DNA from: Bolinopsis microptera
Lineage: Eukaryota; Ctenophora; Tentaculata; Lobata; Bolinopsidae
Assembly (NCBI RefSeq): GCF_026151205.1
Contig: NC_087081.1
Span: forward strand, 9,297,246-9,357,245
DNA: 60,000 bases
Direction of reading: 5' to 3'
Shown: positions 7,976 to 41,300 of the stretch, piece after piece
Layout of the letters: each line of letters begins with the position of its first letter
How positions within the stretch are numbered: position 1 is the first letter of the stretch
Program-made: the position numbers and the translations under genes
The notes under the pieces: model-generated
The model's input: the letters and a program-made list of their open reading frames with translations, nothing else
What the model was told of the DNA's origin: nothing
Database searches by the model: none

Positions 7976-8857
7976 CCTTATCGGACTTTATTTGGACAAA
8001 CATTAAATGAACGGACATAATTTTAAACGGACATTAATATGAACGGTAGAAGGCATTCAAAACCATCAAAAATCCGAATTTTTTAATTTTTTGACGTTTT
8101 TTTATTTCAGCAAATGATTTTTAAATCCATTTTTAAACAGTAAGTAAGAAAAGCAGTCGTTAAGCAGTAAAAATGTTAAAATATGTGTACATGATCAGTG
8201 TCTATTAATATCACATATCATCTCCATCAAATGGGTTTTCGTGCATAAAAAAGTCCATGCTTAAAGCATCGCAGTGATTTCTAACTTTATGGAAACCTTT
8301 TTTTATCAAACTACCCCGGTCCTGCATTTCACTTTCAGTGTTAACTTTTACAAGCCATTTTGTGTGAAGTGGTTTTATATTAGACAACTTTAGGTTTACC
8401 TTAACATCACGTGAAGCTTTCCTAGCACCCTGTCATTACCTCCGCTGAGTAATATGAACTATAACAACGTCGGACAATGTCCTAGTTGGCAACACGATTT
8501 ACCGTAATATCTAGAGGCTGGAACAAGTTTGTCATGTAAGCGGGAACTAGCTAAAAAACTATGAGTATGTTGTTGAGTGCCATAATTTCGTTGACTTTTT
8601 CCACCAAGCGACCCTTTATATACTATTACTAGTAAAGTCGTCTCTGCCTCCGGCAGACCAAGGAAATAACTTAAGTTACGGCACAATAAAGTTCTCATAG
8701 TTGTCTTGTTCTGGACGAACTGGAAACGTTTTTGAAAAAAATTCAACGGACTTAAACTTTGACCTAGTAAATTAACGGACTTTATTTGAACGGACATTAA
8801 GATGAACGTTATAGGGCCTCCAGCGTTCAATTAATGTCCAAATAAGGTCCGATAAGG
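7976..8857. mobile_element. Inverted-repeat element, about 880 bp
   Basis: The left end CCTTATCGGACTTTATTTGG (7976) and the right end, read on the minus strand, CCTTATCGGACCTTATTTGG (8857) are near-identical inverted termini extending ~35 bp. Subterminal copies of GAACGGACATTAA-type motifs occur on both sides. No transposase is visible; a 123-codon open frame inside (8459-8830, minus) uses the repeats and looks spurious. No clear target duplication was found. Confidence 0.65.
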
Positions 8858-14424: not shown

Positions 14425-17400
14425 ATTGGGGTATCAGGAACTGCAGATGATTTGGTTGACGGAGAAAGACCGAAAGCTTCCTCTTTTGAGCGGGCCAACA
14501 TGTTCAGAGCCGCAAGAACCGTGAGTAGAAATTAAATTCAAACGATCCATTAAAATTTCATTATTTCATACGTTTTAAGTACTTAAAAATATAATCTGAT
14601 ATCAAGATATGAGTTAGTATTGGAACCGTCGCTAAAGGTTAAAAATATACTTACGGGGATAAGATAAGATCCACAAGGAACTTAAAATGTATGTCTAGGC
14701 GCTGCCAGTTGTGGGATAACTACACTGTCGCAGATGAACTTGAGATATTGATAAGTGGAAGTTCTAATGGTACAAAAAGAAGTTCCATCTGCATCAACTC
14801 TTGAGTACTAGGAAACGGACGAAATATAAAATCGGAATATGTGCAGCAAATAAAAGGGTTAAGTTGATTAAGGTAGATACGATTAAATCTCTAAAACCAG
14901 CTTTGCCAATGGAAAAAGTAAATTAAAAATAGAACACGTATATAATAAACGTCGAAGCGGGTCGCTAGAAACGCTAATCAATTAACAATTAGTGGTTTAG
15001 AGATTTAGTAATTGAATTAATGTAGGGAGGTGACTGGTGAAGGTTTGTAAAACTCACATTCAGCAACACTTTCACAACAAAACGCTGGATGTCTGTCTTT
15101 TGATTTTCTATTTTAAACCACAAAATAGATTGAAGCCAGAAAGTTGCCTGAAAGTAAAGCCACGCAAAAGCAGCATAATAATAGCGCTGCTGACTGCACA
15201 TCTTTAGAAAGCATGAAAACAGTAAACTTTTCTATCGTGCTCTTCCTATGACAGATCTTACATATTTTAAAACTGGTCGAAGGTATATACTATATAATAG
15301 TTGGATCATATCCGAACTGGCACAAGCTAGCCCACAAATATTCTGAATATTCTATTTGTGAAAATCTTGTAAATTCGAATATACGTCTTACGGATAATAC
15401 CCGTTTAAATTTGTTCCAGACCCGGCAACAAGGCGCAGCTCGGTCAGTTATAAACCTACAAATATCTGTTTGCAACGCCAACTGTATCAGTATGCACGGG
15501 TCGATTCTCCAGCCCACACAAAACCAAATATAAAATACATATCACCTTATACATAGTACTATAGTGTATACATAGTGTATAGTGTATAGTGTATAGTGTA
15601 TAGTGTATAGTGTATAGTGTATAGTGTATAGTGTATAGTGTATAGTGTATAGTGTATAGTGTATAGTGTATAGTGTATAGTGTATAGTGTATAGTGTATA
15701 GTGTATAGTGTATAGTGTATAGTGTATAGTGTATAGTGTATAGTGTATAGTGTATAGTGTATAGTGTATAGTGTATAGTGTATAGTGTATAGTGTATAGT
15801 GTATAGTGTATAGTGTATAGTGTATAGTGTATAGTGTATAGTGTATAGTGTATAGTGTATAGTGTATAGTGTATAGTGTATAGTGTATAGCGTATAGTGT
15901 ATAGTGTATAGTGTATAGTGTATAGTGTATAGCGTATAGTGTATAGTGTATAGTGTATAGTGTATAGTGTATAGTGTATAGTGTATCGTGTATAGTGTAT
16001 CGTGTATAGTGTATAGTGTATAGTGTATAGTGTATAGTGTATAGTGTATAGTGTATAGTGTATAGTGTATAGTGTATAGTGTATAGTGTATAGTGTATAG
16101 TGTATAGTGTATAGTGTATAGTGTATAGTGTATAGTGTATAGTGTATAGTGTATAGTGTATAGTGTATAGTGTATAGTGTATAGTGTATAGTGTATAGTG
16201 TATAGTGTATAGTGTATAGTGTATAGTGTATAGTGTATAGTGTATAGTGTATAGTGTATAGTGTATAGTGTATAGTGTATAGTGTATAGTGTATAGTGTA
16301 TAGTGTATAGTGTATAGTGTATAGTGTATAGTGTATAGTGTATAGTGTATAGTGTATAGTGTATAGTGTATAGTGTATAGTGTATAGTGTATAGTGTATA
16401 GTGTATAGTGTATAGTGTATAGTGTATAGTGTATAGTGTATAGTATAGTGTATAGTGTATAGTGTATAGTGTATAGTGTATAGTGTATAGTGTATAGTGT
16501 ATAGTGTATAGTGTATAGTGTATAGTGTATAGTGTATAGTGTATAGTGTATAGTGTATAGTGTATAGTGTATAGTGTATAGTGTATAGTGTATAGTGTAT
16601 AGTGTATAGTGTATAGTGTATAGTGTATAGTGTATAGTGTATAGTGTATAGTGTATAGTGTATAGTGTATAGTGTATAGTGTATAGTGTATAGTGTATAG
16701 TGTATAGTGTATAGTGTATAGTGTATAGTGTATAGTGTATAGTGTATAGTGTATAGTGTATAGTGTATAGTGTATAGTGTATAGTGTATAGTGTATAGTG
16801 TATAGTGTATAGTGTATAGTGTATAGTGTATAGTGTATAGTGTATAGTGTATAGTGTATAGTGTATAGTGTATAGTGTATAGTGTATAGTGTATAGTGTA
16901 TAGTGTATAGTGTATAGTGTATAGTGTATAGTGTATAGTGTATAGTGTATAGTGTATAGTGTATAGTGTATAGTGTATAGTGTATAGTGTATAGTGTATA
17001 GCGTATAGTGTATAGTGTATAGTGTATAGTGTATAGTGTATAGTGTATAGTGTATAGTGTATCGTGTATAGTGTATAGTGTATCGTGTATAGTGTATAGT
17101 GTATAGTGTATAGTGTATAATGTATAGTGTATATTGTATAGTGCATAGTGTATAGTGTATAATGCATAGTGTATGATGTATAGTGTATAGTGTATAGTGC
17201 ATAGTGTATAGTGTATAATGCATAGTGTATAGTGTATAGTGTATAGTGTATAATATACTGGCTTGAAAACACATAGAGTACTTTAATTAGCTGCAATTCA
17301 TCCACAAGGATAGTTTAGCCTCCCCAACCAAAAAGCAAAAGTTGATTTTTACCTTTGAGTGAGGGACGATGGACCATGTCTAGTGGACACTGGACATCCA

Positions 17401-17755: not shown

Positions 17756-18499
17756 TAAAGAGTACTTAACACGGGTTTTATCAAATGGCTTTGTTATCGG
17801 CCAGCACTCGTGGCTTATTTATAGACATTATTTGCATTATTATGTTACGAAGGTCGAAGACCATGATTCACGAAGGCTCATAAAGTTATAAAAATGCTTC
17901 AGACTTGTAAAATGTAAAGCATGAGACAAAATAAAGTATCCCCATCCATACTACGATGTATGGGCACTACGATGTATGGGGACTTACCACCCCATGGCAA
18001 CATTAAACTATATCGACACTGTTACATCGTTTCCTGTTAATATCAACGTAGTATTATATGACTGCTCTAAGCCCTAGCTAAAACAGCCCAAAACGTAGGA
18101 TTTTAAATATTTAAGTGACTATTCCGTAGATTATAAAATTTCTTAGGCTTGTAAAGTTCACTTCCCCTGGAGGGTGCAGAAGTTAGTGCAGTGAGAATTT
18201 CGTGAGTTTAGTCTAAAGAAATAAGATTTTTTGTAAATCATTCTATTCACACAATATTATTGTTTATTCAATGTTTATTCATACTACGTAACTTAACAAT
18301 TTCTATGAACATTTGCAACATAATTCAAATTTCAAAAATACGACATTTAAAAATACAAATTTTCGTCAATTAAGAATATTTATTCCTATTTTCTACCTAA
18401 CCCACCCTCTATCAGTATCATTAGTTCCTAGAATTACATTCCTCTTGGATAGATTTCCTGAAACTACCTATAAAATGTTTTAGAATGTTTCCCAGCTCC
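17756..18499. other. Non-coding between convergent genes
   Basis: AT-rich 3' flanking sequence between the plus-strand exon ending at 17755 and the minus-strand TIR-galectin stop at 18500. A short duplication (CTACGATGTATGGG) occurs at 17951-17978. No exon seen. Confidence 0.45.
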
Positions 18500-21400
18500 T
18501 CAAACGTCTCTGATGTACGTTGTGCCATCAGGCATGTTCAACTCAGTCCAAACATTACTTTGTACATCATGGAAGCTAACATACCTTGCGTTGGCGAACT
18601 CATTTTTGTGGTTCATCTTCATCTCCAGCAGAACTTTCTCATTTTCCCCATCTTTGAAGAATTCTACTCGGAAATTCTTCTCCTCGACCAGAACAAACAG
18701 GTCAAACAGCTCACACTCAGCTAAAGAGTCTGGGATGGCAGCAGAGATTTCCTGAACGCGTTCTGGCGCATCCCTAATGTTCATGATGAGCACCACCACT
18801 CCCTCTAGAGGTCTAATTGAGATGTGGAGATGTACAGAAGTTGGGTCTTCTATGATTTTAATGTCAAAACGGTCCTCTTCTTTCCTAAAATGTCCCGTGA
18901 AGTTGATGACGTCTCCTATCGAAAGGCTTTTGAATTCGTACGTCCCAAATGACTGAAGTATTTGTCTAGGCTTTGGTAGGCTTATCTTCTTCCAGGGATT
19001 CTCGTTACTCCCCGGGGGAACAAAGCAGACTACGTGAGTAGCTGTATCAAGATCAAAAGCGTAGGGAATATACTCCTCCACCAGCATCTCATTCACAAAC
19101 AAAATCATTTTATTCTCAGCGAATTCGATCTTAATATGGAAGTTTCCACTTGGGTCTGCATGAGCCAGCTTCTTAAATAGGTCCTCTAGATGGAGATTTA
19201 AAGAACCTGTCCATTGTTGTGTTTTCACAATAGAATCCAAGCAAACAATCCCTTCTTTGGGCCTAACATCGAAGTGGAACAGGTAGTCTCCTTTACCCCT
19301 CATAATATTAAAGCTGTAATTATCTCCCTCCTGGTGCTTTCCCCAAACTTCTATGCAATCCCCCACTGCTAGCGACTGTTCCAGTATCATCTCCTCTCCA
19401 AGTTTAACATCTGAAGTACCCTTGCTCTCCTGGGTGACCCGCGGTGCTGGCACTTTTAGTTTCTTCCATCTCCCCAGATCGTCCTCGTCTCTTAAAACTA
19501 CGTTTCTCCCTTCCTTTAGAGGTACTCGGATTGGAAATGACTTCCTCATCTTATCACCATTTATGAAGAAGACGAGTTTATCTTCGTCGTATTTCACGAT
19601 GAGGTTGAAATTTTCGTCGTATTCTCCTCTCTCAAACTTTCTCACCACACGGTTATCTCGTATCTCTGTTTGCCATTGATCATTTACTTTATTGTTCATA
19701 ACAACAACGTTTTCTGTAGGCCGGATGTCAAAGTGGAGAAGGATTTGGCTTAAATCGTCTCCAATCAGGTTAAAGTTGAACTTTTCTCCGTATTCGTACA
19801 GTCCCCAAACCTGTAAGGAGCTAGATAAATTTCTTTGATCTCGTTATAAAACTATCTTTATTCTTAATTTTATATAAAATTCGGCGAGAAAAATACACAA
19901 CCCTCAGAACAATAAAGTTTGCTTAATTTCATGAGATTCTTGGCCTAATCCTCTGTTGGGGGTTAAATCTTGTGCTTGGAGTTAACTGTAACTTACCTCG
20001 ATCTGATCCCCAGGTTCTAAGGGTTGGTTCAGTGGCACGGTTATACTCCTCTCGTCAGGTAATACCATCACCGTTCCTTCCTCCGCTTGACCTACAAGTA
20101 CAACCAGTATTATAATTGGGTTGGTCGTCCGTATATTTGGGAATAAACACTATGAATCCTTTTGGCCTTCCCTTACTCCTTTAGATGATAAAACATATTA
20201 ATTTCAATTTTATAACCATTTTAAGAGTATTAAGATTTTTAAAGGAATTCTGGGTTTTACAATTTTTTAGGCTTATATCACTGAAAATGACGCCTTGCAA
20301 CATGTTTGACGATAGCCTGTAGATTGATAGTTTGATCTCAGTATTTACAACAAATCATCTAGCTTGAATCTTGATTGATTCAAAGGGAGAAAATAAATTC
20401 CTCTGTCGTCCGTATATGTTATGTTATGTTATGTTATGTTATGTTAACATGTTGTTAAATTGTATCTACAGAACTTGTTTTTCATCGGTTAGTAAACAAT
20501 TAGACGAATAATTAGAAACAACCAGAAGAACTACCTGCTGCGGCTCCACGAACTTTTTTCTTTCTTTGTACAGGAGCTTTCTTCTTACTCATCTTAGATT
20601 CCATAGACACCATCTTTCCGACAGGGGTCTCTATAAGAATAATTATAAATTGTGAATGACAGGAGCACTGCTTATAGACAAAACTTGTGGCCTGTTAGGA
20701 TCGAACCTGTTAAGCAGAATTAGTAAACAGTTACTACTGCAATCATGAAAGCTGTAAAAGTGTACAAATAACACAAAGCTACATCACCTGATTTGCAAAG
20801 CCTAGCGCAACACTCAGTAAGCAGCTGAACTATCCTCTTCTCCAACTGCTCGTCACTCTTGAAGTCTAGCCAGAGCTTGCCGGCTGTTAGGATCCCCAAC
20901 CAGCCACTAGCTCGGAACGGGTTACCGTCCTCTGTTCTGTTTTGTGCCATGCATGGCACCACCTGATGGATAGTTTTGTAGTTTAATAGCATCCAAAAAG
21001 ACTCGACATATTAACACACTCACCCCCTTACTTACACACTCACTCACCCCCTCACTTACACATATTAACACACTCACCCCCTCACTTACACATATTAACA
21101 CACTCACCCCCTCACTTACACATATTAACACACTCACCCCCTTACTTACACACTCACTCACCCCCTCACTTACACATATTAACACACTCACCCCCTCACT
21201 TACACACTCACTCACCCCCTCACTTACACATATTAACACACTCACCCCCTCACTTACACATATTAACACACTCACCCCCTCACTTACACATATTAACACA
21301 CTCACCCCCTTACTTACACATATTAACACACTCACCCCCTTACTTACACACTCACTCACCCCCTCACTTACACATATTAACACACTCACCCCCTTACTTA

Positions 21401-24400
21401 CACACTCACTCACCCCCTCACTTACACATATTAACACACTCACCCCCTCACTTACACATATTAACACACTCACCCCCTCACTTACACATATTAACACACT
21501 CACCCCCTTACTTACACATATTAACACACTCACCCCCTCACTTACACACACACTCACCCCCTCACTTACACATATTAACACACTCACCCCCTCACTTACA
21601 CATATTAACACACTCACCCCCTCACTTACACATATTAACACACTCACCCCCTCACTTACACATATTAACACACTCACCCCCTCACTTACACATATTAACA
21701 CACTCACCCCCTCACTTACACATATTAACACACTCACCCCCTCACTTACACATATTAACACACTCACCCCCTCACTTACACATATTAACACACTCACCCC
21801 CTCACTTACACATATTAACTCACTCACCCCCTCACTTACACATATTAACACACTCACCCCCTCACTTACACATATTAACACACTCACCCCCTCACTTACA
21901 CATATTAACACACTCACCCCTCACTTACACACTCACTCACCCCCTCACTTACACATATTAACACACTCACCCCCTCACTTACACATATTAACACACTCAC
22001 CCCCTCACTTACACATATTAACACACTCACCCCCTCACTTACACATATTAACACACTCACCCCCTTACTTACACATATTAACACACTCACCCCCTCACTT
22101 AAACACTCACTCACCGACTTACAAACTACACAGAGAACATTTTGGCTGGTCCGGGGCTGCACCAACTATTTCAGTCTTAGGGAGATCTTTTGATGGTCAG
22201 TTTGGTAGGCAAGAAAACTTACAAGTAATTATTGCTAGTATTTCAGACAAAGATGTTCAATTTGTGTTGAACTTCTCTAACAGGCAAATTTATCGTGATA
22301 ATTTTGCTTTTTAATTTAGTCATATAACACGAACTGAAGATTTTGATTTTGAAATTTGATGTCAACTAATACAGTCATTATTTCAAACAAATTTGTTTGT
22401 AGTCCGATTATACAAGGCCATGATTATAATGAATAATAAAGCATTCACACATTTCAATAAACTGAAATTTTAAAAATTCCCATCTTCTTAACGACCACAA
22501 ATTTGTATGCAAAATCGCAATAGTTTTTCTACAAGAAACAATATCATCAAATTAAATATTGGCTTAATGGTTAATGGGTCCACGATCATATTACTGTTAG
22601 CATCTGTTCTATTATTTTGCCTTAGGGCTAACTTTTATCGAAACCCTCTGAGGGTTTATAACCGTACTATCAAGCTTGAACAGAAGCACGTGATTATCTT
22701 CATCAAACGAGTACGTCAACACATCCGAACAGGACAATACCATTCCAAGCGGATGCCAGATAGGGGGGACAAACACTTCAGTTGGAGCACCAATCTTAGG
22801 ATCAACAACATAACTGTAAGTCATGGAGTGGGCGTCAACTTCCCAATGTAAAGATAAAGGTGTTCCAGCAGTAGCTCTGGGGTATGTTCTAATGAGGGGT
22901 TTCAGTATGTTCCACTTTACTGGGCCGCGCTCAGCCTGTCATTCCGCCGAATCTCTATTCTATGTTTATGAACATAATAGCCTGAGGTCCCCAGGTATGT
23001 TCCACTGGATGTGCCACTGGTCATCAAAGAAGTCTTCATCCCAGTATGTCCAGGAAGCAAAGTGGTCGTCAGCAACCTCCATCATGGCATTACACATGAC
23101 AGTGTCGGAGGAGTTTTTGTTCCCGTCAGGTTGGCAACCTCCAAAATCTGTCAGGAACCAGCCTCCTCCTGTTCTCATCATGTCTCCGTGAGCGGTGGAA
23201 ATGATAGCTTTTTCCTGGATGTCGTCGCAGGCAAGCTTCTGGAACGGAGTCAGAGGGTCGTGGTTTCCGTCGTGGATCCAGCAGTAGAGATGGTAGGATA
23301 AAGCACTTCTATCCCTGAACTCCGGACCCCCAGGTAAAGTATCTATCCCTGTTCCTAGAATCTCCCCATTCAGAACGTAACCCCACGTGACAGGTTCGTA
23401 CATGATGATTGTGCCGTTATCTACTTCTCTGATAGCTCGGGCTATCTTGTCATACACCGGGAAGAGGTTCTGAGATCCTGCTTTTACAGGTAGGAACAGG
23501 AGAGGGTCAGCCCAAACGTATCCTGCCCATGGCTCGTTAATCAGCTCGTAACCTAGCACACTCGTCACGTCTTTAAAAGTATAAGAGGCTACTTTCTTCC
23601 AGAATGCTATGAACATGTCCTGACTCCTGAGAGTGGTTGACGTTGTCGTATAGAAGCCTTGAAAAGTCGCACAGCAATCTTCAGTGAAGTATTGCTTGGC
23701 CCAACCTCCGGCATAAAATGGTTTGGTTGATTTCCAAGGATAGGGATATGGATTTGTACCTTTGGGAAGAATATCCACCAACCAGGCCGGTGCTCCGTCG
23801 TAAGTCCCGAATCTTTTTGACAGCACATCTTGGTGCATGTCCAGAAAAGCGTGCATGCCGTTATCAGCCAGAAGGCTAAGCTGAGATCTGATAACTTGAA
23901 GGTAAGTTTCGTTGTATTTACCCTGCTCAGGTTCCACTCCAGACCACATGGTTCCCAGTCTGACAGCGTTGAACCCCCACTCTTTATAGTGCTTAACCAG
24001 GGAGGCGTTGCTCATGTGTTGGGGATACCAGGGGAACGCTTTGTTCACTGCATTGAACCCGTGGAATATTCTAACTCTACCCTGGTTGTCAACATAATGT
24101 CTATCTTGTCTGACTTTTATTCTGGAGAGTTCAGCAGAAAGTTGTCCTAATTGCAGCACTAAAAATATTAGAACTGCATACCTGGAATCTGGATGTCATG
24201 CTGTCCTGTGATGTATCAAATTCATATCAATAAGAAATACTTCGTGAGCTTAAATAATGTAAAAATGAAAACATTTTATATTTCTAACAGTACTTTGAGA
24301 TACAAAAAGACTGGTAATATCACGAAAAAGTATTTTCAATTCCATATAAAGATAAAATGAAAATGTCAAAACCGAAGTATCAAGAAAGTCCACGTGAACT

Positions 24401-27400
24401 TTAAAACATAGCACATCAACATGTGATTGGTTAGGAAAACTGATATTTATGATTGATTGTGAACTTGCAGCTGACAGTATATCTTGCCTTAACGTTAGTA
24501 GATAAACCTAGAATCCTTATCTAAAAACATTTAGTCGGACCTTGTGATGGTGAAATGAATTTGAAAGCAGAAACCGAAACGTTAAGTAAATTATGATTGC
24601 AAAGTGCATTCCGTCTTTTTACAAAATTTTGGTTCAAATTTCTGGTATTTGAACTGATAACGTTGCATTGAGCGTTCGGCTAGTTTCGTAATCTAGAATT
24701 CTTCGATTAAAAATGTTTCAATAAAGCAGTTTAAAATTTAGGCTAATAGGTTAGGAGCCAATACATTTTTAGAAATCTATGTATCGTTTATCCGTGATTG
24801 GATGATTTAGTTAATCTTTTATTAAACTGAACATATGGCAGGACAGCATGAAATCTAGGTATGCAGTTCTAATATTTTTAGTGCTGCAATTAGGACAACT
24901 TTCTGCTGAACTCTCCAGAATAAAAGTCAGACAAGATGGACATTATGTTGACAACCAGGGTAGAGTTAGAATATTCCACGGGTTCAATGCAGTGAACAAA
25001 GCGTTCCCCTGGTATCCCCAACACATGAGCAACGCCTCCCTGGTTAAGCACTACAAAGAGTGGGGGTTCAACGCTGTCAGACTGGGAACCATGTGGTCTG
25101 GAGTGGAACCAGAGCAGGGTAAATACAACGAAACTTACCTTCAAGTTATCAGATCTCAGCTTAGCCTTCTGGCTGTTAACGGCATGCACGCTTTTCTGGA
25201 CATGCACCAAGATGTGCTGTCAAAAAGATTCGGAACTTACGACGGAGCACCGGCTTGGTTGGTGGATATTCTTCCCAAAGGTAGAAATCCATATCCCTAT
25301 CCTTGGAAATCAACCAAACCATTCTACGGGGGAAACTGGGCATTGCAATATCTTACTGAAGATTGTGGAGCAGCATATCAAGGGCTCTACGACAACGTCA
25401 ACCACTCCCAGGACATGTTCATAGCATTCTGGAAGAAAGTAGCCTCTACTTTTAAAGACGTGACGAGTGTGCTAGGTTACGAGCTGATTAACGAGCCGTG
25501 GGCAGGAGACGTTTGGGCTGACCCTCTCCTGTTTCAACCTGGAAAAGCAGGATCTCAGAATCTCTTCCCGATGTATGACAAGATAGCCCGAGCTATCAGA
25601 GACGTAGATAACGACACAATCATCATGTACGAACCTGTCACGTGGGGTATTTGGTTTAATGGAGAAGCAGGAACAGGATTTGAAACAGTACCAGGGGGTC
25701 CAGAGTTCAGAGACCGGAGTGCCCTTTCTTACCACCTTTACTGCTGGGTCAAGAGTGGTGACAGTGACCCCCTGTCTTTCTTTGATAAGGTCTTGTGTGA
25801 TGACCTTCTAGCAGCAGATGTGTTAACTAACGCCAAGAAGGAGTTCACTAGGACAGGAGGGGGTGGGTTCCTGACCGAGTTTGGAGAGTGTAAACCAGAT
25901 GGGAGACAGAACTCTTCCAACACCGTGCTCTGTGAAACAGTTCTCAAGTTAGCTGACGAGAATCTAGTGAGCTGGACATACTGGGATACAGATTTTTTTG
26001 ATGCTAGTGGGAACGTCCAGTTGGACACTGTGAAGCCCTTCATCAGAGCGTATCCTAGGGCCATAGCTGGAACTCCTTTGGGTCTCTCTTGGGACATGAA
26101 GAGTCACTCGATGGAGTTTAACTTTCTACTGGATCCTACGATCACGGCTCCTACTGAGATATTTGTTCCTCCCATCTACTTCGGGGAAGGAATTGAAGTG
26201 GCAATATCTGATACCTTGGTGTACACTTGGGACCTGGCCAATCATGTCATGCTTATCTATCCCAAGAATTCTGTTACAAATCCAGTTGAGGCTAAGGTGT
26301 ATCTTACACCCAAGTTTTCTTGAATTTATAAGCTTGAATTTAGTTAGAAATATCTGTTGTTTCTTTCTATACATCAATATTGAATATTAGTTAGGTAAAT
26401 TGCTTATACGTTTCCGATTCTCATCAAAAATTTTAACTACTATTGATTTTTTTTACTTGACTTACTTAATATATCCTACGAAAGGATTGTTACATTTTGT
26501 AAATCATTTGACCTAGTAACTATCCAACTTAACATTGATCATATGATCTATCTGAACATTTAAATCATGTAACCTAAGTAACCATCCAACTAAATATAGG
26601 TTAAAACATACCACAACTCCTCTATCATTTGCGTAGTTCAGTTCAGCCGAGCAATTCTTAGATTTTTCGTACTTCTGTGTCATAAAGCAACACACCACTG
26701 CCGAACCTTCAACTCCAGATGCCATCGCCTCATTGATGTTTCCTAACAGATTAATCCTTGAAATTCAGTGTCGCATGCGGTTTTTAAAGTTACCTTCACA
26801 AATAAAATATATAATGGAAGCGTCAGTAAGCTTGGTTCCCGTTCAACGTTTAAAAAATTAAAATAAGACAAATTAAAGAATTGTAATAGGCTAAAATTTA
26901 AAGATTTAATTGTTTAGTCTAAATCCATATTTGGCAAGTTATTAAATTGATAATAAACCTGTTACCCCTCCGTGAATGTCCATCCAAACGTTGATGTTGT
27001 GTTCCGACACGATATCATACACTTTGGCAACCAGTTCCTGATTGTCCCATTGATAGCTCAACATCATGTGCCTTTCGCCCATCTGCGGATACATGATTAC
27101 ACTAAGATCAGATGCTTGGAGAACAGAATGGCTTTTACTAATTCGCTCGCCCAAAAATTTCACGTGACTTTGGTTTTTATGGTTTTGCAGCCGTACAAAA
27201 CGGTTTTACATGAACCCTAATCCCAACCCTAACCCTAACCATAACCCCGAAGCTAACCATAACCCTTCCACAGCCCTAACCCTAACCCGAGCCCTAAGGC
27301 TAAACAATCGAATTCGTATTTTACCAGCCTGTCACGTGACCAAAACGGTTTTTTGCCCATAACTCTCCAAGGAAGCATTTTTACCCTACGTCATGGGGGG

Positions 27401-28284
27401 GGGGGGGGGGGGTGATTCGGAATCAGCTTTCAAAAATACACCGATTTAGATCACTTTCATGCCCAAAATTTGGGCGAGCGATTTAGTAGGAGCGGAACAA
27501 AATAGGGAGGAGGAACATGAGGGATTTCAATGATCTTGAGGATCTGAGGGAACTAGGGGAATTGAGGTACATCAGGTGATGGGGGAGCTGGTGAACTAGG
27601 GGACCTGGGAGCCTGGGAAACCAGAGGCAGATTTTAGTGGTGAATTATAAAATAACTAGTGTAACCCGTGCCTACGGCCGGGACTTCACTATCACAGTTG
27701 AAATGCAAAAGTATAAACCCGCTTATTATAGTTGAAAACACGCATTACATTGTCGTATGAAAAAATGAAAGTATGAACTCTCTCTACAGTCCAAACAGAC
27801 CGCAATGAGTTCCCCCCTAATAAGCTTATAATATTACATAACTGTGAATCTTGCGTCTAACCTAACTATGATTTATGCATTAACGCTGCATATGCAGGAA
27901 TGGGAGAGAGAGCGAAAATGGAGAAAACGTTAGCCATTTTATGTCACATTTGTGGTACGAATCAATTCATCCACTTACCACCAGCCGATTTTTAAAAATT
28001 TGCTTATTGGCTTCGTCGAAACTATACCAAAAAAAAAACTTAACTCCCATAACCGTTTTCTTGATTAAGCTGCTCGGAAATTACACGCGCACAGACAGAC
28101 AGACAGACACACATTGTAAGATTATTATCATTGATATGCATTATAGGTATAGTATTGGGATAGTTATTGGGGCCGACATACCGTATAACTGAAAAGACTA
28201 AAGAGTCTAAAATTATGGCATTACTGTCTAATACTGTTTTCTCACCTGATCTTTGAGTGCCTCCAGAACCTTCGTAAACTCCAT
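18500..28284 (-). CDS. TIR domain - triple galectin-like fusion protein
   Basis: Seven minus-strand exons join without a frame break: 28284-28246, 27082-26959, 26742-26612, 20962-20788, 20630-20535, 20091-19997 and 19810-18500. They total 1971 nt, about 656 residues. Exons 2-4 encode a TIR domain with HMMLSYQWDNQ, VYDIVSEHNINVWMDIHGG, SAVVCCFMTQKYEKSKNC and ASGWLGILTAGKLWLDF. The Glu in CSAEL (about residue 88) sits where NAD-hydrolysing TIRs have their catalytic Glu. Exon 5 is a lysine-rich linker. The rest holds three galectin-like domains. The first keeps HFDIRP and the WQTEIR (W-x-x-E-x-R) sugar-site pattern; the second and third keep HFDVRP and HISIRP but have lost the rest. There is no signal peptide, so it is probably cytosolic. 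Start chosen at MEFTKVLEALKDQ because it gives phase 0 into exon 2. Innate-immune sensing is inferred. Confidence 0.8.
21007..22127. repeat. 30-bp minisatellite in TIR-galectin intron 3
   Basis: About 36 copies of a 30-bp unit (ACACACTCACCCCCTCACTT + ACACATATTA), with variants in which the ATATTA part is replaced by an ACTCACTC segment. It starts 45 bp upstream, in gene orientation, of the acceptor of the exon ending at 20962. Long reverse-strand frames over it are repeat artefacts. Confidence 0.95.
22612..24202 (-). pseudogene. Endoglycoceramidase-like GH5 copy, disrupted
   Basis: Highly similar, in inverted orientation, to the intact gene at 24848-26323, and on the same strand as the TIR-galectin gene in whose intron it lies. 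Near the original ATG (24200) small changes put the start in the wrong frame for the signal peptide. The domain itself reads in frame from about 24159. The acid/base motif ELINEPWAG is kept, but the nucleophile motif is FLTDFG instead of FLTEFG. Compensating indels change residues around STTLRSQDMF. A family A element at 22917-22995, with an 11-bp target duplication, introduces a stop. Homologous C-terminal coding resumes downstream to about 22612. It is unlikely to make an active enzyme. Confidence 0.82.
22906..23006 (-). mobile_element. Short element, family A, copy 2
   Basis: About 79 bp (22917-22995) flanked by perfect 11-bp direct repeats TATGTTCCACT (22906-22916 and 22996-23006). Its ends, GCTCAGCCTGTCATTC and GCCTGAGGTCCCCAGG, match copy 1 at 2899-2969 in inverted orientation. 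It interrupts the C-terminal part of the endoglycoceramidase-like pseudogene. Confidence 0.85.
24203..24847. other. Spacer between inverted GH5 copies
   Basis: About 640 bp of AT-rich sequence separating the two head-to-head endoglycoceramidase copies. It could hold the promoter of the plus-strand copy, but no specific element is recognised. Confidence 0.5.
24848..26323 (+). CDS. Endoglycoceramidase (GH5 family), secreted
   Basis: One uninterrupted exon of 491 codons. Residues 1-20 form a signal peptide ending at about LSA/EL. The GH5 TIM-barrel shows HGFNAVNK (near 44), WGFNAVRLGTMWSGVEP (72-88) and FLDMHQDVLSKRFG (116-129). It also has the acid/base motif ELINEPWAG (Glu216) and the nucleophile motif FLTEFGECKPDG (Glu344). 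A C-terminal beta-rich domain follows (about 415-491). Length and motifs fit endoglycoceramidases, which release the intact glycan from glycosphingolipids; such enzymes are known from Hydra and jellyfish. It is predicted to act extracellularly or in the digestive or lysosomal lumen. It lies inside intron 3 of the opposite-strand TIR-galectin gene and faces a broken inverted copy. Other GH5 specificities cannot be excluded without a search. Confidence 0.88.
   Translation: MKSRYAVLIFLVLQLGQLSAELSRIKVRQDGHYVDNQGRVRIFHGFNAVNKAFPWYPQHMSNASLVKHYKEWGFNAVRLGTMWSGVEPEQGKYNETYLQVIRSQLSLLAVNGMHAFLDMHQDVLSKRFGTYDGAPAWLVDILPKGRNPYPYPWKSTKPFYGGNWALQYLTEDCGAAYQGLYDNVNHSQDMFIAFWKKVASTFKDVTSVLGYELINEPWAGDVWADPLLFQPGKAGSQNLFPMYDKIARAIRDVDNDTIIMYEPVTWGIWFNGEAGTGFETVPGGPEFRDRSALSYHLYCWVKSGDSDPLSFFDKVLCDDLLAADVLTNAKKEFTRTGGGGFLTEFGECKPDGRQNSSNTVLCETVLKLADENLVSWTYWDTDFFDASGNVQLDTVKPFIRAYPRAIAGTPLGLSWDMKSHSMEFNFLLDPTITAPTEIFVPPIYFGEGIEVAISDTLVYTWDLANHVMLIYPKNSVTNPVEAKVYLTPKFS
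27200..27296. repeat. Degenerate interstitial telomere-like CCCTAA repeats
   Basis: Runs of AACCCTAACCCTAACC and variants (AACCATAACCC, CAGCCCTAACC) on the plus strand, equivalent to TTAGGG on the other. It lies in intron 1 of the TIR-galectin gene. Just downstream is an 18-G run (about 27396-27412). Confidence 0.85.
27640..28120. mobile_element. Possible dispersed element with (ACAG)n tail
   Basis: Starts near ACTAGTGTAACCCGTGCCTA and ends near a CGCACAGACAGACAGACAGAC tract, an arrangement often seen in dispersed elements. There is no coding capacity and no second copy in this window, so this is only a suspicion. It lies in intron 1 of the TIR-galectin gene. Confidence 0.3.
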
Positions 28285-28691
28285 TTTGCATTCTACTCAA
28301 ACGGGAAAATATAAAAGATTTATTAATATTATCGAGTACTCTACTGAAATACTTACAAAGTTACAATAACTCCGACATTAGATTTATATTATCAGCTAAT
28401 TATCGATTCACATAATGTTGTTCATCCTGCAGGCCTATTTGAACTAAAAATAATATATCGAGGATGGGACGGTTAAATTATTTGCAGGCGGAGGCAGTTG
28501 ATTTGAAAAAGAAACTGAACAATGAGTCGGAGATCTAGTCCAGCTTGGGAAAATGAGGCATAATTAGGCGAGACATCATGTATTTGCCCGAATTCGTGCA
28601 ATCTAAACTAAAAATGCAACACATTAGCTGGATAGTACAAGCTAAAAATTCTAAAGACTGTGCAGTGTGCTAATCTCATTTATAAATATTT

Positions 28692-28739
28692 ACTTTAGCT
28701 AATTTGTATACTATAAATAGTATACAAATCAGCTAAAGT
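28692..28739. repeat. Palindromic hairpin, about 21-bp arms
   Basis: ACTTTAGCTAATTTGTATAC is followed within 6-8 bases by its reverse complement with one mismatch. This is a compact stem-loop with no gene around it. It could be a small MITE or a hairpin RNA precursor. Confidence 0.7.
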
Positions 28740-29566
28740 TAATATTTACAAAGTAAATAATAAAAGCTAGAGAACAGCTCAAAGAATGTTACTATCGATG
28801 GTATTAATAATTATACGAATTATACTCGTAACAAGGCGCAATAACTCCGCGGTGTATATAATTACTATAGCGATTCAAACTCAATTGTAAAGTGTAAATC
28901 TATTGGTTTGCTAGTGTAAAATGTTAATCCTCCCGAATAGGCATAAATGTATAATTGTTAATATGTGGTCACTAAATGTGGTCACTAAATGTGGTCACTA
29001 AATGTGATGATGGACACAGTTAGTAGTTATTAACTTGGCAGAATATGCTGTCACGTGATATTGCAGGATTGCAGTTCTCAGCTGATTCTACACCACTGAC
29101 TTGGGACGTATCAACCCTGGTCAGAAAAAAGTGGTGGCGCCACGACTATTATGACCGACCAGGCATTTTCTGCTGCGTTTTCGGTTACATTGGGTAACTA
29201 ATCGGAAGAAATAACCATTGGCTTTTTTGTTCATGTTCTTTAAAGTCATTCCTCAAAATCGGAACTCCGAAATAGTTCCCACCTATAGTTAGATAAATCT
29301 AGAAATTAAATGCAAAACAACTTGATCAACCCACATTGAACACAAAATAACTGTGTATTTCAATGTGCAGACGTTTTGGATATCAGACCTAATCGAGCTG
29401 TCATCAAGCAAATCACGTACATTTCGTGATAAGAATACTTATGATATTACAGCTGAGCAATACTACATTATTAGTGAATATGTGAAATAAAGAGTGTCCT
29501 AATGTGCGCTGAGCGCTCTGACCCTTTTTATTTCAGACTGGAACCCACCATCCCACCAATCATGCA

Positions 29567-31066: not shown

Positions 31067-31637
31067 AGTATACAAGATATACAAGATATACAAGATATAC
31101 AAGATATACAAGATATACAAGATATACAAGATATACAAGATATACAAGATATACAAGATATACAAGATATACAAGATATACAAGATATACAAGATATACA
31201 AGATATACAAGATATACAAGATATACAAGATATACAAGATATACAAGATATACAAGATATACAAGATATACAAGATATACAAGATATACAAGATATACAA
31301 GATATACAAGATATACAAGATATACAAGATATACAAGATATACAAGATATACAAGATATACAAGATATACAAGATATACAAGATATACAAGATATACAAG
31401 ATATACAAGATATACAAGATATACAAGATATACAAGATATACAAGATATACAAGATATACAAGATATACAAGATATACAAGATATACAAGATATACAAGA
31501 TATACAAGATATACAAGATATACAAGATATACAAGATATACAAGATATACAAGATATACAAGATATACAAGATATACAAGATATACAAGATATACAAGAT
31601 ATACAAGATATACAAGATATACAAGATATACAAGATG
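31067..31637. repeat. (ATATACAAG)n satellite
   Basis: About 63 near-perfect 9-bp units. Because 9 is a multiple of 3, every frame without a stop stays open, giving artefactual open frames on both strands. It lies about 180 bp beyond the stop of the CAP-sushi-TSP1 gene. Confidence 0.97.
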
Positions 31638-31819
31638 TACACAAACACTATTCCGTCTCAACCAAACATGCAGAATCCTTGCTTAAAAATGAAAAATGAT
31701 AAATTACATAAAAAGGTCTAATCAAATGACGAAAACATAAAAATTAAACTAAAAATCAAAAATGTTCTTAAATGTCTCTACTTCTGCAAGAATCCCAAAT
31801 AACCGTAAATATCCAAATA

Positions 31820-35300: not shown

Positions 35301-38300
35301 ATATGGATTAAACAGGATTAAACAAACAACAAGGATTAAACATGAAATTACCAGAGAGAACACTAACGGACTCGTCTTGGCTATACAAGGATGAATAAAT
35401 AAATCAATAAATAAAATTATTAAAACTGAATCATTTAAAAATTATTAAAATTTAACCGTTTACAATTTCACGAAAATAAAAGAAGATCGTCTATAATAAT
35501 TTAAGGTAATACAGTAAATAAAGTTCGAGTACGAGGATTAGGACTTATTTTTAGGATTTCGAAGGTTTGAAGAGTCTGTTAGGTATTTCCCGAATTCTTT
35601 TGTGTGACAAGAGTTCATTATGGTCCTATACTCTTTTAGCATTACAAGGCTTTTCAGGTTATCAGAAAGCTTTGAGCGGAGGGAGTGGTATCCAGGGCAT
35701 TCAGTTATGACATGATCCTCAGTTTCTAGGATAGGTGTTTCAAAGAAAGGTAGCTCTTCGAAAAAGCGAATGACGTCTGTGTCTGGAGAGCAGCAAAAAC
35801 GACACGTTTTCAATGCTGTGTTGTATCGATCACTAGTATATCGACCTTTCTCTACTCTCAGATCGTGACTGCTAGAGCGAAGTTTAGCAATGTTAGCTCT
35901 CTTAAGCCTGCACGGAATCTGTAAGTACTGTTCTTCACCAAACTCAGGTTTGACCGCGGTGTAGAATGACATCTTCGGCTGGTTGTGAAGATCCTTTTTC
36001 CAGTGGTTCACAAAGGTTTCGTGTATGTGCTCACGTGCTGCAAGAGCGGGGTGTAGGTTTGGTTTAGCGGAGGTGCTCATCTTGATGATAGTGGACCAAG
36101 TGTCATACCAGGTAAGGTTCAGTTGTTTCTGCTCCTGAAATGTATGGTGCAGAAGTGTGTTCACGTTACCTACTACCGCTTGTGATGCTCTATAGAAGTA
36201 GGCAATACATTGAGGGAGGACGGTCACTGTCCAGGGGGTTCTTCCTGTGTCGCCGTAACAGAAGTTGTTATTTGCCTTTTTGTGGACACCCAATATCCAT
36301 TTAAGAATTTTTAGGTGAGTAGATTCGAGAGCATCTTTTGCTGCTGCTTTTGGGAGACTCACTTCTTGGTTTTTTGAGAGAATGGCTTTCGCGATGTTGG
36401 TCGATGGCAGCCAAACAGGGCATCCGTATGTAGCTGCTGGCTTGACTAAGCTATCGATGAGTTTTAGCATCGTGCTAGTGGAGAGTGCTCTCGTGTCAAT
36501 AATTCGTCTCATAGAGAAGAACGAGCGTAGAGCTTTTTTCCTAAGCTCGTCGATTGCTTGTTTGAAGGAACCGTTCAGAGAGAATTGGATTCCCAGGTAG
36601 CAGTATTTTCTTACTGGTGCGATGTCCAAGTTTCCTAGCTTAAATCCGTAAGCACATTTGAGTATTCGTGAGCTTGTGTTAAATACCATCACACTGGTTT
36701 TGTTGATGTTCACAGACAACTCCCACTTTACGGCATAGTCATGCAAGCAGTTCAGCAGTTTCTGTAAGCTGTCCGCATCCAGCGCTAAGAGGACCAAGTC
36801 ATCTGCCCAAAGGAGGTGGCTTACTTTAACACCGTTTAGAAGAGGTACATCCAATTCCTCAATTTGTTCCAGCCTGATGGAGAGCTCGTGGATATAAAGT
36901 TTGAAGAGCTCAGGGGACATTGGATGCCCTTGTTCTGTACCGATCGTGACGTCAATGGCTGCGGAGAGCTTTTGGATCAGCTTGACTCGGGTTGAAGAGT
37001 TGTTGTACATGTGACTGATGCATTCGAAGAATTTGCCTGCTATTCCCATGTTGCTCAACTTGAACAGAAGTGCTTCCCTACATACACTATCGAAAGCCTT
37101 GCGATAGTCAACAAAGCATGCGAATAGTCGCTTCTTCTCTTTCTTGGCGTATTTCTCTATGACTGTATTTAGGGTGAGTATGTGGTCATTACATTGGGCT
37201 CCACTCCTGAATCCAAGTTGATAGGGTCGGTCAGGACAGGCTCTTTCTCTGAATTCGATTAACCGTTTGAGGAGTAGATTCGAAAAGAGTTTACCGAGAC
37301 AGCTCCCAATTGTTATGGCCCGATAGTTATCAGGGTTTTGCCGGTCACCCTTCCTATGGAGGGGAGTTGTGATGGAGTTGTTCCAGGGGTAAGTTCCATG
37401 CTGGAGGCAGGAGTTGAAGAGTTTTACCACGACGAGTTGGAGTTTCTCGTTGGAGTTTTTCAACATTTCGTTGGATATCAGATCATCGGACACACTCTTA
37501 TTGTTTTTGAGTTTTTTAGTTGCATCTTTGATTTCCTGTAACGTGAAGTCGCGATTCAGTTCATCGACCAGTTCCTTGGTGAGCTGCGAGTTGTTGGACA
37601 ATGGAGTAGGGGTGACATCGTCCCTTGAGTGATCGTTCCTACCACACTTCCGGTTGTAGAGATCATTAAAGAATTTGTGGAAGAGGATGAGATCGTAAAT
37701 GTCGAATGGTTCTTCATCTTTGTACTGGTCAGATAGCCGTTTGAGTGCTGCCCAGTTTACATCTCCACTTTCGTTTATCTTCTGGTTCATCTCATACAGG
37801 AATTTCCCCTTTTTCATCCTCTTAATAGCTCGGTATTCCTTTTTTCTGAGGAAGTGCTGGTCACGAAGGAAGTTGCTGTGTGGATTACTGTTGGCATTTC
37901 TGTCGGCTCTGTTGGCCTCCCTTTTAGCATGTCTACAGCTTTGGTCAAACCACTTTTTCTTACTGGAGCGTTTGCCACTTTTGGTCGTAGTAACAAAATT
38001 CGCAAGATTGTGGTATGTTGCAACCACGTCTTCATTAAGCTGAGCAGCGTCGTTTGCTGTGTTCACTGGTTGATCAAGGAGGCAGTCCATTTTGTCTTTG
38101 AATGACTGATCATTCTGTGCCAGCCGGAACTTAGTTGCTGTGTCAGCAGAGAGGTTCTCTGATAAGTTCCATTTGAAAGCTTTAGGTGCATCTTGGATAT
38201 CTGGCGATTCAAGACTGTTAGAAATCCTTCTTAAAGGGTTTGTCGATATTGACATTGACAGCGCTCTGTGATCGGAATATTGAGAGATGCTCTCAATTTT

Positions 38301-41300
38301 CAGGTGGCGGACTCTGTCATGAAGACTCGTCGAGACGCAAATGTAATCAACTGTGCTGACACCATGCCGCTGAATACAGGTGGGTTCACCGAATATGTCG
38401 CCGAGAGTTCTGCCATTTAGGATGACTAGGCCTGTCATCTGAAGGAGTTCGATGAAGGGTCGCCCATTCGTGTTTAGCTTTGGGTCTGAGTTATTGCGTT
38501 TAGCCAGCTTTTTAGAGAAATGAGCGTCGAGCTCTGTATCCTTCATTAGACTATGGTCTGATAACATGTCGTCCAGAGTGCCAGTTCTAGCATTGAAATC
38601 CCCGAGAAGAATGATATCCTCGTTCAGAGGAACTCCAGCCAGGAATTCTTGAAGATCCTCTAGAGTTGACATACTGTCTTCAGTTTCCAGACCTTTTCTT
38701 CGCTTCTTGTAGGATCCATTTTTGGGTGAGTCATAGACATTGATAATATAGGTGTTTCGGTCTAGGTCGAAGTAGTTAGCTTTAAGCTTAACTACAACGA
38801 TATCTTCCCTGGAATTCATACGAACGTTGGTTACACCAGCTTTTAAGCTTTTGTGAACTCCGATACATACTCCGCCTGAATTTGATCCCTTCCTGTTAGA
38901 GTTAAAGCAACAGTAGTTACTTAAGTTGATCTCCCCTTTTGTTTCTTGCAGAGCAAAAATATCGTGGTTGTCAAGTAGTTCACGAATTTCGGTTATATCA
39001 ACCTTGGCTCCTTCAATTTTGTCCCGAGAGTGGTTGATATTCCAGCACAGAAACTTAAGGGAGTGGCGGGACCTCGTTGATGTGGGTTTAGTCATTGCTA
39101 AACCTGTTGGTGCTGCGTCTTGTTTTATCATTGTCGTGGTAGCTTATTCGGGAGAGTCGCAGGGTCTTTCTCAGACCCTCCCGGAGGCGAAGCCAAAGCA
39201 TCTTTTGACCTCTCTGCCTTAGCTCGAATCCAGTGTTGAACGAATAAGAATTTTGATCGCCAATTTTATCGTTTGAAAAGGTGAAGATCCTATCTTTGAC
39301 ATCCGGCCTGTGTTTGTGGAGCCAGCTAACATGGTTTCTGGTCTCCTCATTGACGACTTGTATTCTTTCATTGATGCTAGAGTTGTTGGAGGAGGGTATC
39401 AGCGCTGAAAAGCATATTTGAGCCTTTGTGGTGTTCAGTAAATGTTCGTAGAGTTCCTTCACATTGCTTACAAGACTTGATTTCTTTTTAAGGAAATCAT
39501 TGCTCCCTGTGTGAATGTAAATGCACTCAGGTCTTAGTCTTTTTATAGTGTTGTTGAGCTTCTTTGATTTTTTCAGCATATCTGAGTAACTATCTGCTTT
39601 AAAACAGTGAACATTAAACTGACTGTTAAAGCGCCTCGGGTCAAACTCGTCAAAGCTCTCATCATGGATGAGAAGAACTGTGTGACGCCTGTAGCTAACC
39701 TTAGCTTCAGCGGCAGAGTTTGTTTCACTGGAACCCCGATCGGGGGGGTTAGTATGTTCTATTCTGTTTCCGAGGTCATATTGGCGGCTTCTAGTGTTGA
39801 GGTTCTCCCGACTTCGCCTCATTTCGCTAGAGGGTCGATCGCCTCTAGAGCCCCTTTCATTGTGGTTTTTCATGTTCTGCTTGTTTGCCACCGTGAATGG
39901 CGTCTTGTTGCTTTGATCAACCCTCTCTGCCCAGGACATCTCTGCTTGCTTGAGCTCGCTTTCACCTGAACGTGCTGTGGCATCGCTGGAGCTGTTACGG
40001 TGTACTCTGAATTTCTTGCGTTTGAGTGTTGGCTTGGAGTTCCCTGTGGAAGGACTATTGAGTGCCGCTGGTATATTATTCACTGCGGGTTGTTCAGCAG
40101 CGTTTAGAGCTTGTATCGTGTCCTCTAAGTTGATCTCCAGGGTTTCAATTCTGAAACTGTTCGATGCGCTTGTGGTTTCAATTGCCTCGACGATGGGGCG
40201 AAGCTCATGTTTAAGTTCTTGGGTTGAGGCATGTGATTGATTGAGTGCAGACTTGGCAATTCCTTTCGTGGCTTTCGTCAAGTTTTCTTGGCCGATCTCG
40301 AGGGTCTCGATCCTCTGTTTGTTAGCGGAATTGGCAGATGACAATACTTTCAGAGTCGTACTTTGTATCGTGTTTAGTTCGTCCGAGAACTGAGCTTTGA
40401 AGTTGATCAGTCTCTCGAGAATTAAGTTCTGCTCGTCTACTGCTGATCTAAGTTGGTCGAGGTCAGCCCGAATTCCATTAAGCTTGGTCTCTATTGGGCC
40501 AACTTTCTTTTTAAAGATGGATGACACACATTTTTCAGATGTGGTTGGGGATGATAGGATGAGGTCAGAGAATGCTTTTTGTTGAAGCATCTCTTCTTTG
40601 AGTCCGAGTAGACTGTCTTGAAGTACAGACATCGAATGTTTCAGGTCTGAGCAGTTATTGCAACCGTTCAGGGTCAGGTGATCCTCAGGGTTATCATCAC
40701 GAGTTGGTTGGTTTCCATCGCTGGCTTCCGTAGTAAGCTCATTGGTGATAATCCTAGCATCATTTGTAACGGAGGCATCAGAGGTTTTTCGGTGAGATTT
40801 CTGAGTGTCACCTGAGATGGATAAGCTTTGATCATCGGTGCGTTTCCCTCTCTTTTTCTTTTTGTTGCTCTTCCCCTTTTTCTTTTTCGGAATTTTAGGG
40901 CATTGTTGTGCCTGGGGTGTTAAGAAATCAAATTTTGTGTCGGAGCTGCCGGATAACGGTCCACCAGGGGTTATGTAATCGCCCGGGTCGTGTGGACTTG
41001 GCTCGCTATCAAAATGTTCCGTATTCTGCGACTGTATGACGTTACTACAAATCGAGTTTCCAGGTGCTTCCTCATTTGGACTATCGAACACTAGCCTAGT
41101 AATTTCGCTGCTTACGTGTCGGTTTGTGCAGAACGTAACCAGGTCAGTTTTCCTTTCCCTGGCTGAATTGCTCAGTGGGAGGCTGTTTGCTAGGAGCTCA
41201 AATTTGATCACGGTGTCCTCCAGTTTGTTTATAAGGTGTGTGACTAGTTTTGCGGTTTCCTTAGAACCAGTGGTCTCACAGGTTTCGAGAAGGTCACAGA

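Follow-up and report, generated by a model that had tools for sequence, protein, structure and literature searches.

The DNA analysed here, a window of 60,000 nucleotides from the lobate ctenophore Bolinopsis microptera (C10:9297246-9357245), carries on its minus strand a gene whose predicted product joins an N-terminal TIR domain to three galectin-like domains. Rebuilt from the genomic DNA, its seven minus-strand exons (28284-18500), which span 9.8 kb, splice into a coding sequence (CDS) of 1971 nt that encodes 656 amino acids (aa) plus the stop codon, and all six introns (6/6) are of the GT-AG type, with phases 0, 1, 0, 1, 1 and 0. The predicted protein matches with 100% identity and 100% query coverage the NCBI entry 'uncharacterized protein LOC134821743 [Bolinopsis microptera]' (656 aa), hereafter P0001, which is an agreement between gene models, the RNA basis of the NCBI model not being given. 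An earlier note made from the letters alone had proposed seven exons with matching phases and an unbroken frame of 1971 nt for 656 aa; its coordinates and length are correct, and the rebuilt CDS equals the NCBI model. The parts of the gene, in window positions, are as follows.

28246..28284, minus strand: exon 1, residues 1-13 with the start codon; identical to P0001
26959..27082, minus strand: exon 2, residues 14-54 plus 1 nt; N-terminal portion of the TIR domain (TIR_2 match 20-140)
26612..26742, minus strand: exon 3, residues 55-98; TIR core with the CxxE motif and E88
20963..26611, minus strand: intron 3, 5649 bp; contains two inverted glycoside-hydrolase-5 (GH5) copies plus a tandem array of 30-bp units
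20788..20962, minus strand: exon 4, residues 99-156 plus 1 nt; C-terminal portion of the TIR domain (GWLG..TAG.LW)
20535..20630, minus strand: exon 5, about residues 157-188; 96 nt, symmetric phase 1-1; most of the Lys-rich linker
19997..20091, minus strand: exon 6, about residues 189-220; galectin domain 1 begins here
18500..19810, minus strand: exon 7, residues 221-656 with the stop codon; remainder of galectin domain 1 plus galectin domains 2 and 3
19511..19810, minus strand: galectin domain 1, exon 7 part; Pfam stretch 206-320; H246, D248, R250, N259, W266, E269, R271
18971..19390, minus strand: galectin domain 2, about residues 361-500; Pfam stretch 361-467
18524..18949, minus strand: galectin domain 3, about residues 508-649; Pfam stretch 515-602; altered binding loop in P0001
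18263..18384, minus strand: three AATAAA motifs past the stop, from a motif scan

A microexon between exons 2 and 3 was considered and rejected: the first GT after GGAGGG gives the wrong frame, and the next donor (ACAG|GTTTAT, 26959/26958) restores HGGVTGNIN and matches the NCBI model.

One gene across the TIR-galectin junction

The weakest link of the gene model, from the TIR exons to the galectin exons, is backed by two homologues. P0006 (654 aa) aligns with 100% of the query at 43% identity, shares the TIR plus galectin architecture, and lies on a contig of 2161 bases. P0002 (585 aa, 74% identity over 89% of the query, contig of 1984 bases) runs from the middle of the TIR domain, starting at V70, to the C-terminus; it is incomplete at its N-terminus, and its TIR fragment scores 22.1 bits against a TIR_2 cut-off of 28. 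Both contigs are probably spliced transcripts, as they are far too short for an intron-rich gene of 9.8 kb. The linker motif SExPVGKM is kept in P0001, P0006 and P0002. The same pair of domains, which the earlier note had proposed to look for elsewhere, is found in P0006 and, with a TIR fragment, partly in P0002.

Gene prediction might have wrongly fused a TIR gene with a neighbouring triple-galectin gene, and indeed exon 4 stays open to a stop 22 codons inside intron 4, and ATG codons are present in exon 5. However, the junction and its conserved linker stand on both short contigs, and LOC134821743 is identical to the spliced product. Moreover, introns 4 and 5 contain neither AATAAA nor ATTAAA by motif scan, as against three AATAAA in the first 240 bases past the final stop; this is a weak argument for one gene, since such motifs also occur in intron 6 (one) and in exon 7 (three AATAAA/ATTAAA). 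Two separate genes thus appear very unlikely, and a mistaken fusion hardly credible: judged from these sequences, one gene encodes both the TIR domain and the galectins.

Each protein search scored the 7997 best word-sharing candidates, and member counts are lower bounds. Among the 11 proteins that passed with the 656-aa query, two carry both Pfam domains as precomputed (P0001 and P0006), P0002 has galectins plus the TIR fragment below cut-off, four are galectin only (P0003-P0005, P0007) and four TIR only (P0008-P0011). The four galectin-only proteins begin at or within exon 7, as expected from a single-exon reading of genomic DNA. A profile search returned 12 proteins, adding the galectin-only P0012 and the TIR-only P0013, with P0008 absent from its list.

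The TIR domain, the linker and the galectin array

The TIR domain recognised in the earlier note holds up clearly, with a Pfam match to TIR_2 (PF13676) over residues 20-140 (E 8.7e-16, 59 bits, cut-off 28) and a score of 59.7 bits for P0006. It is the most conserved part between these two proteins (63% of 156 positions). The glutamate of the CxxE motif, E88, is invariant in the seven aligned TIR rows (7/7), two of which (P0010 and P0011) also bear NB-ARC (PF00931); P0013, outside the alignment, has the same motif. A profile built from the TIR rows finds Cat1, a CRISPR-associated TIR protein, as the best of three solved sequences (E 5.2e-5), with E88 aligned with Cat1. In the AlphaFold2 (AF2) model, the order of elements in residues 1-155 fits the alternating beta/alpha TIR fold; the fold search was made with the whole protein only, and no TIR chain is among the rows shown. 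PADLOC gives weak matches of P0001 to ThsB, bSEFIR and SAVED-TIR models and of P0006 to bSEFIR and SAVED-TIR (best E 5.4e-7); in NCBIfam, the only Thoeris match of P0001 is far below cut-off (20.2 of 220 bits) and P0006 has none.

The protein thus possesses a catalytic-type glutamate, as in NAD-cleaving TIR enzymes, and may be an NADase. According to a 2020 review (PMC7282519), TIR NADases require this glutamate and self-association favours their activity. A TIR_2 match alone does not fix the clade, since TIR_2 matches nearly all TIR subclades, several eukaryotic ones, found in some animals, being uncharacterised (PMC13142454, a 2026 preprint).

Between the TIR domain and the first galectin domain lies a Lys-rich linker that is probably disordered, to judge from a predicted local distance difference test (pLDDT) below 50 at residues 156-193 of the AF2 model. 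The remainder matches Gal-bind_lectin (PF00337) in three stretches (E 2.7e-27, Pfam scan of the 656-aa protein). Scanned alone, galectin domains 1, 2 and 3 score 56.3, 30.7 and 23.7 bits against a cut-off of 22.1, so that the three galectin-like domains announced by the earlier note all stand, the third narrowly. Identity between P0001 and P0006 is 40%, 45% and 34% for domains 1, 2 and 3, respectively. In a structure search with the model, every one of the 50 VIA rows is a galectin, the top VIA-align row being galectin-8; galectins also make up most of the 50 Foldseek rows shown, next to laminin, neurexin, sliding-clamp and other rows.

Galectin sites were compared in an alignment of seven of the eight galectin-bearing proteins, query included; the eighth, P0012, lacks the domain 1 site. 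We take H, N, R, N, W, E and R as the galactoside-binding set, with position roles from vertebrate galectins. Domain 1 has a near-complete signature, with H246, R250, N259, W266, E269 and R271 in 7/7 sequences. In domain 3, a Trp-Gly-x-Glu loop is present in 5/7 (P0002, P0004-P0007), and its Trp is gone in P0001 and P0003.

A candidate cytosolic glycan sensor with a TIR output

A simple scan for hydropathy revealed neither a signal peptide nor a membrane stretch, no run of 19 residues exceeding 1.35. Of Toll-like receptor features, the protein has neither leucine-rich repeats (LRR; Pfam to E 0.1) nor a transmembrane helix by hydropathy, and of SARM1 features neither ARM nor SAM in Pfam, where only TIR_2 and galectin are above cut-off; 19 residues precede the TIR_2 match.

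Galectin-8, a tandem-repeat galectin and cytosolic sensor of damaged vacuoles, signals via the autophagy receptor NDP52 and not through an effector domain of its own. It is likewise leaderless with tandem galectin carbohydrate-recognition domains (CRDs), but it has no TIR domain, and two CRDs against three here. Plant TIR-type nucleotide-binding LRR proteins (TNLs), bacterial TIR-SAVED and TIR-STING, and Cat1 also unite a TIR output and a sensor in one chain and carry the CxxE glutamate, whereas the sensor here is a galectin array in place of a nucleotide-binding or LRR module, and TIR activity is predicted. SARM1 is another leaderless animal TIR protein, but it has ARM and SAM domains and a C-terminal TIR, whereas the TIR is N-terminal here. 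SARM1 too carries a catalytic-type glutamate, E642 (PMC7282519), and its TIR belongs to a clade distinct from the remaining animal TIRs (PMC13142454). A close parallel among ctenophores is the TIR2 repertoire of Mnemiopsis leidyi, which also combines TIR_2 with unusual partners: in PMC11797021, 15 TIR2 genes are reported, four of them upregulated on Vibrio re-exposure; the partners in the legend of Fig. 3a are zinc finger, EF hand, lamin tail and FN3, with no galectin, and the tree included B. microptera sequences.

We favour the reading that this single ctenophore gene encodes a leaderless, probably cytosolic, glycan-sensing effector of the form TIR-linker-three galectins, and hold it tentatively, at rather less than an even chance, with ligand, NADase activity and location all predicted. 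This reading, whose core of a cytosolic glycan sensor with a TIR output the earlier note had suggested, is plausible because of the absence of a leader or membrane stretch, the domain 1 signature, and the conserved TIR glutamate. By analogy with galectin-8, domain 1 would bind beta-galactosides that are exposed to the cytosol by phagosome or endosome damage, or that are borne by microbes, and domain 2, through a conserved non-canonical pocket, would take a second ligand or partner. Multivalent binding would bring the N-terminal TIRs together via the flexible Lys-rich linker, and the crowded TIRs would then cleave NAD+ or recruit other TIR proteins; we favour cleavage because of the CxxE glutamate and of Cat1 as nearest solved relative. 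A broader proposal, that ctenophores, with no classical Toll receptor in three surveyed genomes, possess a 'galectin-TIR' receptor class that cleaves NAD+ when CRDs cluster on exposed glycans, is possible but on balance doubtful.

Several points weigh against such a sensor. The domain 1 site has D248 in place of the usual Asn in 6/7 sequences (Asn in P0006); domain 2 has H399, D401, R403, C410, D412, W420 and N425 in 7/7, a non-canonical set with no Glu/Arg pair; and domain 3 of P0001 is without the W and R of the canonical set. As these signature residues differ, the three domains are not equivalent, a point missed in the earlier reading: domain 1 resembles a galactoside binder, domain 2 a binder of some other ligand, and domain 3 seems to be decaying in the P0001 lineage. 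The AF2 model was built on an alignment of 10 sequences, has a predicted template modelling score (pTM) of 0.33, and does not give the arrangement of the domains. With the single protein as query, 44 PDB sequences were matched and none was a TIR, only the profile search finding one. Furthermore, Toll-receptor TIRs carry a glutamate near the same place, so E88 alone is no proof of activity, and galectins can exit cells without a leader, so leaderless does not equal proven cytosolic.

If the fusion is real and glycan-triggered, its TIR might instead lack enzymatic activity and serve as a scaffold to recruit other TIR proteins of ctenophores. Candidate partners would not be lacking, with 22 other exon-level TIR_2 matches in the Bolinopsis genome (such genome lists are exon-level lower bounds, and the split TIR of LOC134821743 is missing from these 22), and according to PMC11797021 one death-domain TIR2 protein of M. 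leidyi 'might be considered as Myd88-like'. However, in the same paper no ctenophore TIR2 sequence falls in the TLR-like or MyD88-like groups, and the invariance of E88 and its motif in 7/7 rows, together with Cat1 as nearest solved relative by profile, makes a pure scaffold unlikely. Alternatively, the galectins may not sense glycans at all, and may serve to keep the protein together or to bind partner proteins, with the TIR regulated otherwise. The conserved non-canonical site of domain 2 (7/7) and the loss of the domain 3 Trp in P0001 and P0003 would agree with this, as would the C-terminal CRD of galectin-8, which binds the protein NDP52 (title of PDB entry 4gxl). We regard it as distinctly unlikely, because the H, R, N, W, E and R of domain 1 are kept in 7/7, including P0006 with its 40% domain identity, which is hard to explain without selection on a ligand site. 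Finally, the protein might be exported and act outside the cell, for example on microbes, given that leaderless galectins leave cells without a signal peptide. Its 11 cysteines and lack of a leader, and the intracellular nature of NAD+-consuming or TIR-scaffolding outputs in known cases, make this improbable.

Genomic context and significance

By eye comparison of 30 galectin, 22 TIR_2 and 36 P0001 matches in the assembly, we saw one TIR-galectin gene: in these lists, no TIR match other than LOC134821743 lies less than 1 Mb from a galectin match, and two further galectin loci that we read (L056 and L057) hold galectin only. At L057 (C4:1269500-1279400), an open frame of 745 aa (2908-5423, minus strand) has four matches to galectin and overlaps an upstream frame (5423-4998) with a hydrophobic stretch before a galectin-like part, perhaps a secreted multi-galectin.

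The closest TIR paralogs lie on C2 (46% over residues 11-182), on C11 as an opposite-orientation pair (44%), on C3 and on C9, and tblastn of the 656-aa protein finds no galectin match within the roughly 4-9 kb read downstream of each, so that a galectin exon farther away is possible. A lone tblastn stretch (L052/L053) is at chance level (E 0.08) and has stops inside. The C11 pair (L052, C11:12932500-12942000; 4280-5297 minus and 7758-8745 plus) carries a C-terminal domain of 138 residues in each gene, whose repeats recall a beta-trefoil by eye; it has no Pfam match, an unconvincing best PDB match (E 0.41), and as its only genome matches (2/2) the pair itself. In Bolinopsis, the TIR subfamily thus has two or more types of partner C-terminal to the TIR, as would suit a modular family of sensor-effectors.

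Intron 3 holds two inverted, seemingly intronless GH5 copies (22612-26323), presumably endoglycoceramidase-like; the earlier note mentions neither these nor the 30-bp array of this intron. The plus-strand copy (24848-26323) is open over 491 aa, with Cellulase and Glyco_hydro_5_C matches. The minus-strand copy (about 24195-22612, Cellulase) has 84% DNA identity to it over 1216 columns, in-frame stops around 22939-22968, and an 81-bp stretch resembling window 2897-2969. Long tandem arrays lie at 15572-17252 (7-bp), 21006-22105 (30-bp; within intron 3, ending 43 bp from exon 4), 31069-31641 (9-bp) and 44884-45535 (9-bp). By eye, two long overlapping open reading frames (ORFs) of 1154 and 1201 aa at 35538-42552 (minus) resemble a non-long-terminal-repeat retrotransposon, the second one reading in part like an endonuclease and a reverse transcriptase, and three similar ORFs at 50150-56059 (minus) resemble tandem CAP/SCP-domain genes, with a 16-bp tandem array nearby (52753-53923). 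Rfam has no match over window 18000-29000.

The main text of PMC11797021 has no occurrence of galectin, GLECT, galactoside or Gal-bind, with a listing in its supplements possible; galectin is likewise absent from the accessible text of PMC6040629, on choanoflagellate gene families, and galectin and ctenophore from the main text of PMC13142454. The fusion points to the eukaryotic TIR clades called uncharacterised in that preprint, and may belong to one of them. The statement of the earlier note that no animal protein of this architecture was described agrees with our finding no TIR-galectin report in the literature, supplements and most subscription papers lying outside the search. We thus did not find the architecture described before, and it extends to a second diverged protein, P0006.

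The observation is confirmed and strengthened; the proposed function stands as a good hypothesis rather than as a result. In vertebrates, galectins signal vesicle damage via separate adaptors, and plant and bacterial TIR effectors often carry their own sensor. If our reading is true, a TIR-galectin protein in an early-branching, apparently Toll-less lineage would join both schemes in one chain, with glycan sensing coupled directly to a TIR output.

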